From Roseomonas sp. (GTDB lineage Bacteria > Pseudomonadota > Alphaproteobacteria > Acetobacterales > Acetobacteraceae): a stretch of DNA of 35,948 bases. A program made the translations under genes and the position numbers. The DNA is taken from assembly GCA_020249125.1 (NCBI GenBank), contig JADCGG010000089.1, positions 1 to 35,948 of the forward strand. Direction: 5' to 3'. The notes below the pieces were generated by a model that was not told where the DNA came from, ran no database searches, and saw only the letters and a list, made by a program, of their open reading frames with translations. Position 1 is the stretch's first letter. Each line of letters starts with the position of its first letter. Shown here piece after piece: positions 25,840-35,948 of this stretch.

Positions 25840-28146
<2,307 letters not shown>

Positions 28147-31084: not shown

Positions 31085-32539
31085 TCAGGCCCTGCCGCGC
31101 GTGACCAGGCGGCCCGGCTTTTCCCCCGTGGCACCCTTGCCCGCGACAAAGGTTGAAACGCCATTGGCCCAGACTTCCTCGATCCCCGCACTTTCCTGCT
31201 TCGGGTTCTCAAAAGTGGCGCGGTCAATCACCGTATCGGGGTCGAACATCACCAGGTCAGCATAAGCACCTTCACGGATCACGCCGCGATCCACCATGCC
31301 GAAAACAGCAGCGGGACGCCCGGTCATTTTATGGACAGCGGTCTCAAGGCTGAACAGGCGCAATTCGCGCGCATAGAGGCCCAGCACGCGCGGGAAAGTG
31401 CCCCAAAGGCGCGGATGGGGATGCGCATCATGCGGAATGCCATCTGAGCCAATCACTGACATGGGATGCGCCATGATGCGGCGCACATCCGCTTCATCCA
31501 TCTGGAAGGTGATTTGCCCCGCCGGCAACAGGCGTTCAGCCGCCATGCGGATATCCGTATTCCAGCCACGCGCAATGTCAGACAGATATTTGCCGGCCAT
31601 TTCAGGATGCGGGATGGACCAGGTGATCATCACCTTCACATCATCGCGCAGCCGATCCGGCATCAGCACGGTGGACCCCGCCGGATAGGGATAGACATCG
31701 AAGCAGACTTCCTGGCTTTGCGCATAAGCGTCAATCAGCGCGAGAGTCTGGTTTGAACGTCCGTAATTTTCCGGCATTGAGCATTTATGGTGGCTGATCC
31801 AAACCGGGCAGCCAACGCGATCACCGATCTTCAGCGTTTCTTCGATGGAAGCGCAAACGCGGTCTGCCTCATCACGCATATGCGTCACATAAATGCCGCC
31901 ATAGGCGCGCAGCGGTTCCGCCACCGCGATCACTTCTTCCGTGGTCGCATGCATGTTCAGCGGATAATAAAGGCCGGTGGAAAAACCCGAGGCCCCTTCG
32001 GCGAGGGATTGCTTCACGCGCAGCCGCATGCGTTCGATTTCGCCATCATTGGCAACGCGCATCACATCGCCATCCATGGCTTCCACACGCATGGTCTGGT
32101 GGCCGACCAGCGCATAGGTATTCACTTCCGAACCCTGCTTTTTCAGCTCATGCGCGTAGTCGCCGAAACTGTCGAAGCGCCACCAGCCATCTTCACCAAT
32201 CAAATCAAGCGGCGGCGGCGGGCGCTTGGAAAACCGCGCGGGCGAAAGGCTCACACCGCAATTGCCGACAACAACCGTGGTGACCCCCTGGCTGATTTTG
32301 CAGGTCATGCAGGCAGGCCCGCACAGCACGGCACGGTCATCATGCGTGTGGCTATCTATGAAGCCAGGTGCGACCGCCTTGCCGCCTGCCAGTACTTCGC
32401 GATCCGCACTCGCCGCGCCCAGATCACCCACCGCGACGATGCGATCGCCCGAAACGCCAATATCGCCGCGCCGGCTGGCGGCGCCGGTGCCATCAATGAT
32501 GGTCGCATCGCGGATGATCAGATCGCAGCGGAGAGCCAT
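31085..32539 (-). CDS. N-acyl-D-amino-acid deacylase / D-aminoacylase family amidohydrolase
   Basis: 'APGFIDSHTHDDRAVL', 'GNCGVSLSP', 'VWISHHKCSMPENYGRS', 'VIGSDGIPHDAHPHPRLWGTFPRVLGLYARE'. Confidence 0.93.
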   Translation of the reverse strand: MALRCDLIIRDATIIDGTGAASRRGDIGVSGDRIVAVGDLGAASADREVLAGGKAVAPGFIDSHTHDDRAVLCGPACMTCKISQGVTTVVVGNCGVSLSPARFSKRPPPPLDLIGEDGWWRFDSFGDYAHELKKQGSEVNTYALVGHQTMRVEAMDGDVMRVANDGEIERMRLRVKQSLAEGASGFSTGLYYPLNMHATTEEVIAVAEPLRAYGGIYVTHMRDEADRVCASIEETLKIGDRVGCPVWISHHKCSMPENYGRSNQTLALIDAYAQSQEVCFDVYPYPAGSTVLMPDRLRDDVKVMITWSIPHPEMAGKYLSDIARGWNTDIRMAAERLLPAGQITFQMDEADVRRIMAHPMSVIGSDGIPHDAHPHPRLWGTFPRVLGLYARELRLFSLETAVHKMTGRPAAVFGMVDRGVIREGAYADLVMFDPDTVIDRATFENPKQESAGIEEVWANGVSTFVAGKGATGEKPGRLVTRGRA

Positions 32540-32636: not shown

Positions 32637-35087
32637 TTACCGCGGCCGCGCAGATTTGGCCGGCGGTGTCGCCAGGGCAATTGCCTTTTCGGTGCCAAGC
32701 AGGATTTCGGCAAACCTCATGATGTCGTGGCGTTGCAGCCCCCCGCCATCAAGGGCGTTGAGGATGGACTTGATCTTTGCGGAATGACTAATCTGCAGAT
32801 TGTCAAACGCTTGAAAGCGTCCGGCACGGCGACCGGCCTCTTCCAGGCGCCTCAGCGCCCGGGCTAAAATTTCAATATTGAGGACAACGGCAGCACGGCG
32901 CTTAGCATTCGGTTCATGCAGAGCAGGCAGAAATTGTAGATTAATGATCTGTTGCGTGGCCTCCTTGATTACTGAACCGATGTTATCTAGCAGCGGAGCA
33001 AAGATTTTTTGCTGATCCTTGATGCGTCCACGGGATGCGATTTCAAATTCACTTAGCAGGGCGACATATTCCTCGGCGATTTGCGCAGCGCGCGCGGGGT
33101 CTTCGGCGGGTAGACTCGGCAAGGGGTTTCGTTGCAATTTCTGAAGGGTTTCATCGATAATGCTGACAGCGACCGCCGAGATCCGAGTCGCAGTTGCCAG
33201 TACCGAGCTGGGGCTCTGCGCGCGGTCTAGTAGGCTTGCCACAGCCAAGCTGAACGCGGCTTGCCCCTCCTCCGCGGGTCCCTGGAGCGCGGCCATGACC
33301 AATTCTGGAGACGGTCCGGAAAAGGCGGCCAGCTTTGCTTCCCAAATCCCATCTGCGTGCCGCCAAATACTGGCCACCAGATCAAGCAATTGCCTGGTTC
33401 CTGCCGCATCAAGCCCGATACTCGGCAAGCCTTGTGGGAATGACAGGGTCGCCGAAAGACGTGCGGCTTCGGCCCAAAGGGCGCGGCCTTCCGAATCAAC
33501 CTGCAAGACATCAAAGAAACTGCGACCGCCGAGTTTGGCTGAAATCTGCTGTACCTCCGGTCCCAGCACTTCTCGGAGTGCATCTGCAATCGGCTGCAGG
33601 GCGGGGCGCGGTAATTTCGCGCTACCGGCGCGCCATTCATTCATGGGCACCACCGCGCCATCGAAGGGCAAGAACAGTATACGCGTGAAAGTGATAGGGC
33701 GTGGTGGCTTCAGGAGCTTCAGCCTGGGGCGTGCAGCTTCGATGATCGGATCAAGCATGGCGCGCGCAGGTATGGCTTCCAGAGCCGCAACGACCTGCCG
33801 CAATACCGAATCGGACGCAAGGGAGGTTCGCTTGGAAATGCGCGAAAGCGCGTCCGCACCATCATTGCCGTCATGACCGGCTTGGGTGAGGGAGCGCCTG
33901 GACTGTACCAGATCGGCTTCACGCAGCTTCTTGGCTTCAGCGGCAAGCGATGCGCCATGCTTACCAGACAGGAGCGTCTCGTTCCGGGCGATGAATTCCA
34001 AGGGGCGAAGGCGCCGCCAGTCCATACTCTTGGGGCCGGCAGCCTCTTCCTGGCGAATCTTCGATGCACCATCAGGAAAACCGCTCCAACCTTCCACTTC
34101 CCTCGGCAGGCTCGGCACCAAGTCACTCATTTCCCAAAAGCAGGCTTCCCGATCAGAGGGTTCCGATTGTCGCCATAAGGCGATGATAATATCCCAACCA
34201 TCAAGCAACCATTCTGGGCGGGCGACGCGCCGCAGAACCGCTGCCTGATCGCGCTGCCATGCACGCAGAAGGATCGTGGTATCCTCGATCACCGGATCAA
34301 GTTCGCTAATCGCCGTCTGAGCGCAGATTAGGGAAAGCTTTGCCTTACGTAACAGGAATTCTGCCCGAAACCCACGCGCGCTGTTTCGGCGAGGGGCGAG
34401 CCACTGCTCAAGCTCGGTAATAAAGGATTGCAGGTCGGCCACAGCTCTTCGGGTATGGCCGGTCACAGAGTCGTTTCGCTTGCAGATGGGCATTAAAGCG
34501 CTAGCCAAGACCTCCAGCGCCGCCTCAACCGCCTCAACAGTCATCGAATAGCGCTTGGCGATGCGCGCCACCGCCTTGCCGATACGTGGACGCAGGTAGA
34601 GCAGACTTTCCTGTTCCGGGGGCACCTTTGCCTCTGCGTGCAATTCGGTGCGACGAATCAAGTCAGTCAGCAGCAGAAAGAACATGCGGCGCCGCACATT
34701 GGAATCAGCCGCCTTTTGTTCGTCTGCCCAAGCCATGGCAGCCCGGCCTCGCCACCCTTCAAGTGCAACGCTAATCATTGCCTCACGCAGCTTGATCGGG
34801 GAAATTTCATGTGTGGCTCGGAGTTTTTTCCAGAGCTCTTTGTCATGCGCCGTAAGCCAGGGCGTACGGAGGAATTGCGCCTCTGACAAGGTCATTGGCC
34901 CCGACTCTCCCGCAAGGTAGCTCAGAGTCACATGGGGCTGGGCACCAGGGACGGCGCGGCTGACGCAGGCACCGAACAATTGCGGCGTCGTGAACGCTAC
35001 GACAACGCCACGTTCCGCAAAGCTACCCGGATTGCCTTTACTCTGCTGTCCCGGGACTGAGGGGGGGAAATTGTCGCTTCCTGACAT
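32637..35087 (-). CDS. Large protein of unknown function (816 aa), tandem paralog of the upstream gene
   Basis: Long ORF without a recognisable domain; C-terminal ~240 aa aligns by eye with the neighbouring ORF. Confidence 0.7.
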   Translation of the reverse strand: MSGSDNFPPSVPGQQSKGNPGSFAERGVVVAFTTPQLFGACVSRAVPGAQPHVTLSYLAGESGPMTLSEAQFLRTPWLTAHDKELWKKLRATHEISPIKLREAMISVALEGWRGRAAMAWADEQKAADSNVRRRMFFLLLTDLIRRTELHAEAKVPPEQESLLYLRPRIGKAVARIAKRYSMTVEAVEAALEVLASALMPICKRNDSVTGHTRRAVADLQSFITELEQWLAPRRNSARGFRAEFLLRKAKLSLICAQTAISELDPVIEDTTILLRAWQRDQAAVLRRVARPEWLLDGWDIIIALWRQSEPSDREACFWEMSDLVPSLPREVEGWSGFPDGASKIRQEEAAGPKSMDWRRLRPLEFIARNETLLSGKHGASLAAEAKKLREADLVQSRRSLTQAGHDGNDGADALSRISKRTSLASDSVLRQVVAALEAIPARAMLDPIIEAARPRLKLLKPPRPITFTRILFLPFDGAVVPMNEWRAGSAKLPRPALQPIADALREVLGPEVQQISAKLGGRSFFDVLQVDSEGRALWAEAARLSATLSFPQGLPSIGLDAAGTRQLLDLVASIWRHADGIWEAKLAAFSGPSPELVMAALQGPAEEGQAAFSLAVASLLDRAQSPSSVLATATRISAVAVSIIDETLQKLQRNPLPSLPAEDPARAAQIAEEYVALLSEFEIASRGRIKDQQKIFAPLLDNIGSVIKEATQQIINLQFLPALHEPNAKRRAAVVLNIEILARALRRLEEAGRRAGRFQAFDNLQISHSAKIKSILNALDGGGLQRHDIMRFAEILLGTEKAIALATPPAKSARPR

Positions 35088-35209
35088 GATCCTGGATTAT
35101 CGTTACTGCCATTCGTTTCTCGGTCGTGAAAACAACCAATACAACGTTAGGGCATCTTCATCATTTCTCCAAGTACCTTTGCACAAAATGTCCCGGTCTT
35201 TCGGGGGGC

Positions 35210-35948
35210 TCATGCAAGAAAGCCGAGGCCTGCTTCCGGCCCCAACAAAATTTCTGCCAGACGCGCAAGGTCCAATCTCGTCATTCCGCTCGGCTCCAGC
35301 GCGCCTTGCGCTGCCCCAAGCGCCGCAGAGATACGCGCCGCAGCGCCATTATAGCCGTGATCAAGCCCGTGGCGTCGGCCAATACTCTCAATGCGCCGTA
35401 AGGCGCGTGCTTGGGCTTCCATAGCCAGGATGGCTTCCGGCGTGGCTGAGGTGCAGAAGGCCGGCAATTGGCGGAGGATGTGGGTTTCAAGCCCTTCTTC
35501 ATAAGCGAGCCGGCAGGTCACCTCGGCTTCCTGGCGCAGCTGCGCAAGGCGCGCGGCGCGGCGCGGGTTGCGTGTGGCTGGCGCGTTTTCCAGATCCTGG
35601 AAGGCTCTTCCGAAGGACTCGGCAAAGACGGCGGCGGTGCTGAGATCCTCGCTCGGTAAGTGAACCCGCGCCCTTTCCAGCCAATCATCCACGGCCGCAT
35701 CGGCGATAATGCCCGCTTTGGCGGATAATCTGGCCGCTTCCCTGGCGACCTGGCCCGGGCTTGTTGCCTTTTGCATCAAGGTCGCCAGCGCCATGCCGAA
35801 GGCGGGCGAATTCTCGCCGGCCATGGGGGAAAGCGCGGCGCGCACCGCTTCATCTGGCGGCCCCCAGCCGGCAAGCTGAATGGCTGCCCAAAGCGGGCCG
35901 GCATGCTGCCAAATGCCGGCAGCAAGCTGGACCAAAGGCACGAAGTCA
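35210..35948 (-). CDS. Protein of unknown function, 5' end beyond the window; paralog of the 816-aa protein
   Basis: Frame open to the window edge; 'LAAGIWQHAGPLWAA...ALRRIESIGRRHG...LARLAEILLGPE' vs 'LVASIWRHADGIWEA...ALRRLEEAGRRAG...IMRFAEILLGTE'. Confidence 0.7.
   Translation of the reverse strand, partial: DFVPLVQLAAGIWQHAGPLWAAIQLAGWGPPDEAVRAALSPMAGENSPAFGMALATLMQKATSPGQVAREAARLSAKAGIIADAAVDDWLERARVHLPSEDLSTAAVFAESFGRAFQDLENAPATRNPRRAARLAQLRQEAEVTCRLAYEEGLETHILRQLPAFCTSATPEAILAMEAQARALRRIESIGRRHGLDHGYNGAAARISAALGAAQGALEPSGMTRLDLARLAEILLGPEAGLGFLA

Follow-up and report, generated by a model that had tools for sequence, protein, structure and literature searches.

An undescribed two-part protein module of Alphaproteobacteria, fused and quadrupled in one Acetobacteraceae lineage

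Results

Four-copy array at the window edge

The window analysed in this study (35,948 nt) spans contig C312 from end to end; the genome, of 3.53 Mb, is assembled in 323 contigs. As the earlier note had described, two open reading frames (ORFs) lie on its minus strand, separated by 122 nt. The ORF at 32637–35087 (minus strand) encodes a protein of 816 aa, designated P4, and is the final gene of a four-copy array. The ORF at 35210–35947 (minus strand), which runs into the contig end, was assigned from the ORF list and the contig placement as the C-terminal 245 aa of a further copy, P3. The intergenic gap between them (35088–35209, minus strand) contains no terminator-like or sigma-70-like site. 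The C-terminal ~240 aa of the two proteins, which had been judged alike by eye, indeed aligned without gaps over ~239 aa at 33% identity, and the E value of 2e-26 places this likeness beyond chance.

The sequence past the window edge, which the earlier note had called for, was located by searching the genome with the 816-aa protein as a query. This revealed extra pieces of the array on contigs C277 and C67. C277 breaks off within a copy at position 548 of the query, and the truncated copy of C312 starts at position 567. When both ends were placed on the orthologous gene of the sister genome G015, the C277 end spanned bases 1518–1917 and the C312 end followed from base 1918, with zero gap. The two contigs thus carry one gene split by the assembly, namely P3, whose initial 576 aa lie on C277. 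The order of transcription is therefore P1 (C67), P2 (C277), P3 (C277/C312) and P4 (C312), with ~1.1 kb absent between C67 and C277, and the window holds the final one and a third of the four copies. The "pair" of the earlier note is accordingly part of a four-copy array in the lineage of the window, and most carriers have a single module.

The four-gene array is present on a single contig in G015, G007, G020, G008, G034, G031 and G033, and the P4 orthologue of G015 is 94% identical to that of the window. In G015, G007 and G020, the array is flanked by a 2-hydroxyacid dehydrogenase-like gene, with an enolase-like gene before it, and by an N-acyl-D-amino-acid deacylase-like gene, these names being given by reading the sequences and not by profile search. 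The four copies occupy separate loci in G005 and G025, where all of them are retained.

The deacylase-like gene is also found in the window (31085–32539, minus strand), on the same strand and 97 nt downstream of the array, and it recurs by the split module in some of the larger-genome relatives. Elsewhere in the window, a 734-aa ORF (25942–28146, plus strand) has an N-terminus that resembles catalase-peroxidase (KatG).

Fusion of two unrelated halves

In every copy of the array, two unrelated halves are joined: N, of ~370 aa, and C, of ~400 aa. Within P4, the N-part comprises about residues 1–385 (33933–35087, minus strand) and the C-part about residues 410–816 (32637–33860, minus strand), and in most relatives these parts are encoded by separate genes for ~370 aa and ~400–460 aa, respectively. 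In members of the same genus with larger genomes, the query matched a pair of neighbouring ORFs instead of one, N with ~376 aa and C with ~400 aa, and the N-then-C order is the rule at the loci of other genera and families, with one module per locus in most carriers. Among the 104 split N/C pairs counted, 21 overlap by exactly 4 nt, and the larger negative spacings reflect over-long start choices in the mechanical ORF list. We rejected the idea that N and C are ancient duplicates of one another, since their profiles are unrelated.

Adjacent, overlapping genes that become fused in one lineage are a usual mark of proteins that bind each other, and the N and C proteins, which fit this pattern, would thus be binding partners. 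The idea of "two subunits" proposed earlier holds in a different form, in that each protein fuses two halves that are separate neighbours elsewhere. Solitary homologues, or membership in a known family, had been named as outcomes that would speak against the earlier reading; single modules are the rule outside the lineage of the window, whereas no well-characterised family was found.

Several loci depart from the N-then-C order. A candidate for a second, independent N-C fusion (L127 8053–12832, in G146) was discarded as a probable frameshift artefact, because the N match changes frame and motA is also split there, making sequencing indels likely. Three loci (L113 5981–9818, L129 8427–10911 and L226, genus g81) represent a separate subfamily with an N-C-N' arrangement, in which a second N-type gene lies past the pair, in a conserved hemW/16S rRNA methyltransferase-like neighbourhood. 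At L174 5819–9779 (G671), two N-type genes surround one C-type gene, with an unusual order and orientation.

Conserved motifs and predicted structure

A strand-rich N-terminal segment of four strands (residues 28–67; 34887–35006, minus strand) holds the family motif RGxxVPFTTPxLxGARxR...NPSGGRGxYVxPW, which is partly eroded in P4, and further along the N-part lies a DGW motif (residues 296–298; 34194–34202, minus strand) that is invariant in the family alignments. The best-conserved stretch of the C-part is the 'RPITFTRILFLPFDGAVVPMNEWRAG' block (33618–33701, minus strand), with the family consensus RPxxFxRLLFLPLDxxIVPAxxWRxG. The invariant residues of the N and C alignments are mostly Gly, Pro, Arg, Trp, Leu, Asp and Glu, and no catalytic-type Cys, His or Ser, nucleophile or metal-site pattern was detected among the invariant columns, which suggests that a scaffold or adaptor is likelier than an enzyme.

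An AlphaFold2 model of the fused protein, built on 91 sequences, gave a mean pLDDT of 89.7 and a pTM of 0.87. In agreement with the earlier description of a mostly helical protein, the model is helical to its end after the strand-rich residues 28–67, and a low-confidence linker (residues 400–408) lies between the halves. Since a single confident model was obtained at this pTM, the N and C halves are predicted to dock. The N-part of Azospirillum, modelled alone, had its strands and helices in the same succession (pLDDT 86.5).

A Foldseek search with the AlphaFold models, which the earlier note had proposed, was performed against the PDB and viral models and yielded no match at E ≤ 0.001 and no described family; the best match among the viral proteins of BFVD had an E value of 0.08 and a TM-score of 0.12. 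HEAT/armadillo-type repeat proteins (karyopherins and designed armadillo repeats), which are likewise largely helical, were among the top-ranked targets, but with a best E value of 0.19, TM-scores of at most about 0.35 and an rmsd above 12 Å they do not represent a real match. Neither a Pfam repeat family nor a fold match to repeat solenoids at E ≤ 0.001 was found in the N-C proteins.

Searches of Pfam-A, NCBIfam, PHROGs and PADLOC gave no family match that was over the cut-off or consistent across members. An isolated weak profile match to DUF6869 (E 4e-4) occurred in 1 of 18 C members, and the one trivial match in PADLOC was to BrxC (13.8 bits, one protein). A sequence-profile search of the PDB returned low-score matches only, mostly to coiled-coil or helical chains, and no description of the family was found in the literature by accession or by topic. 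The earlier observation that no domain is recognisable held, as neither a Pfam or NCBIfam domain nor a TM-like or enzyme-like signature was found, and so did the suggestion of an undescribed candidate. The N-C family and its architecture are undescribed; "new" denotes here the distance of the family from every family tested, and not a proven new mechanism.

Distribution

The N-part was detected in 123 of 300 Acetobacteraceae genomes, covering 54 of 102 genera, and the C-part in 32 of 385 genomes of a class-wide sample, one of them marginal. G557 was dropped as a carrier, as its marginal C match contains a stop and the genome has no FlgI. As far as sampled, the family is limited to the Acetobacteraceae, the Azospirillaceae and about ten other families of the Alphaproteobacteria. 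A phylum-level sample of 115 genomes gave no match beyond the window genome, but every row shown was alphaproteobacterial, which makes this a weak test of wider spread.

On the megaplasmids and chromids of Azospirillum, the module is annotated as pairs of "hypothetical proteins". The pairs WP_014249635.1/WP_014249636.1 and WP_012977162.1/WP_012977161.1 are true distant relatives encoded by adjacent N and C genes, and they differ from the array in being separate genes, with one module per locus and about 20–30% identity.

History and selection

A tree was built from 60 proteins, fused or concatenated, in which P1, P2, P3 and P4 each formed a single clade with 100% SH-aLRT support. The earlier view of an ancient duplication that stayed in place is supported. 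Fused copies from the genus grouped together with 83% support, under the 95% line, and its split genes adjoin them. The simplest account is one fusion followed by three in-place duplications in one reduced-genome Acetobacteraceae lineage, in which P1–P4 have diverged to about 30% identity. The dN/dS values of ortholog pairs were 0.12–0.27 over all four copies (0.20–0.27 for P4), as compared with 0.03–0.11 for five neighbouring genes. P1–P4 are under purifying selection, although they evolve faster than their neighbours.

These data also bear on the possibility of a decaying or selfish array, in which recombination would have made redundant, non-functional copies. Broken copies do occur in a few genomes: in G026 (C11, C33, C40) and G032 (C3), copies of the module are interrupted by several stop codons, indicating occasional loss. 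In most genomes, however, the four copies stay open over ~800 aa, each within its own ortholog clade and with dN/dS well below 1, and G005 and G025 have kept their copies at scattered loci too, which makes decay most improbable. The retention of four copies in genomes of 3.5–4 Mb suggests instead that they are not redundant.

The earlier note had further considered an effector/partner pair, and an effector/immunity or toxin-antitoxin type pair or an anti-phage system would fit the tandem arrangement, the lack of known domains and the long-diverged paralogues. Against this, the copies are alike in architecture and do not divide into a toxin and its partner, there is no PHROGs match and no PADLOC match beyond the trivial one, and the array is vertically kept at the same chromosomal locus across species as four orthologous clades under purifying selection. 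An effector, toxin or defence role is therefore highly unlikely.

Association with flagellar genes

Among the Acetobacteraceae, MotA (TIGR03818) was found in 117 of 123 carriers and in 118 of 177 non-carriers, counts that ignore kinship. The six carriers lacking MotA all possess FlgI, so that 123 of 123 have one or the other. In the class-wide sample, MotA was over the cut-off in 29 of 31 clear carriers as compared with 195 of 385 genomes overall, again irrespective of kinship, and the two exceptions both have FlgI, giving 31 of 31 with flagellar genes. Conversely, of the 13 Acetobacteraceae without MotA and FlgI, none has the module, whereas urease, a patchy control gene, is present in nine. 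Within the genus g55, FlgI was found in 4/4 clear carriers and was absent from 6/9 non-carriers (Fisher p 0.07); G174, with a weak N match, MotA and no FlgI, was left out of this comparison. In terms of gene content, uncorrected for ancestry, the module is thus confined to genomes with flagellar genes among the sampled confident carriers. Two further Acetobacteraceae, G111 and G126 (genera g78 and g93), have FlgI and only a weak MotA1 match, possibly reflecting another stator type.

The motA/motB stator genes, present in nearly all carriers, were found within about 0.1–5 kb of the module at 10 loci, mostly in convergent orientation on the other strand; they are neighbours and co-occurring genes only and are unrelated to it in sequence. 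Also conserved in the neighbourhood are alkA, enoyl-CoA hydratase (echA) and ompR-type two-component genes, and a guess at the function from this context was abandoned, as it comprises synteny blocks only and no pathway. Since motBA is mostly convergent and alkA is conserved as well, the adjacency may be plain synteny. No flagellar neighbours were found beside the module in Azospirillum or in the lineage of the window.

The same N:C scaffold could have a non-flagellar job, for example in envelope, cell-cycle or stress scaffolding, with the co-occurrence arising from shared lineage and lifestyle. The module's distribution closely follows ancestry and genome size, the association counts ignore ancestry, and motBA is embedded in the wider alkA/echA/two-component block. 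Moreover, the module is missing from about one in two flagellated Acetobacteraceae, four genomes of the window's own genus among them, and it is thus not a core flagellar part. The missing flagellar neighbours in Azospirillum and in the window lineage point the same way, whereas the lack of any confident carrier without both MotA and FlgI, the frequency of urease in non-flagellated genomes and the contrast within g55 argue for a flagellar role. We give the non-flagellar job nearly an even chance, and the flagellar and non-flagellar versions of the scaffold are about equally likely. The flagellum link is a lead, a correlation confounded by ancestry and not a demonstration.

Discussion

The usual form of the module is a two-gene unit, N then C. 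Its two products likely associate into a stable helical scaffold that is cytoplasmic and non-enzymatic. In one lineage, N and C were fused and the fused gene was duplicated in place to give P1–P4, which are likely specialised subunits or variants of this scaffold. The N:C complex may tentatively be assigned to the flagellum, in the motor, the stator or assembly control, because every confident carrier sampled has flagellar genes and motBA is close to the module at 10 loci. Taken as a whole, a helical scaffold of two parts in the cytoplasm, which fused and quadrupled in this lineage and plausibly serves flagellar motility, is a tentative proposal to which we would give somewhat less than an even chance. 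Its most specific form seems rather unlikely, although worth stating: in Acetobacteraceae, Azospirillaceae and related Alphaproteobacteria, N:C would be an undescribed accessory complex of the flagellum, cytoplasmic and with a helical fold unmatched in the PDB, and one lineage would have turned it into a four-subunit hetero-assembly by fusion and three duplications.

Reduced genomes normally shed paralogues, and a fusion followed by a retained quadruplication in a genome-reduced lineage is therefore an unusual route. The family is present in half of the sampled Acetobacteraceae genera and in the plant-growth bacterium Azospirillum, and yet it has no family name. If the link to the flagellum is true, a component of motility would have escaped notice in a large group of bacteria.
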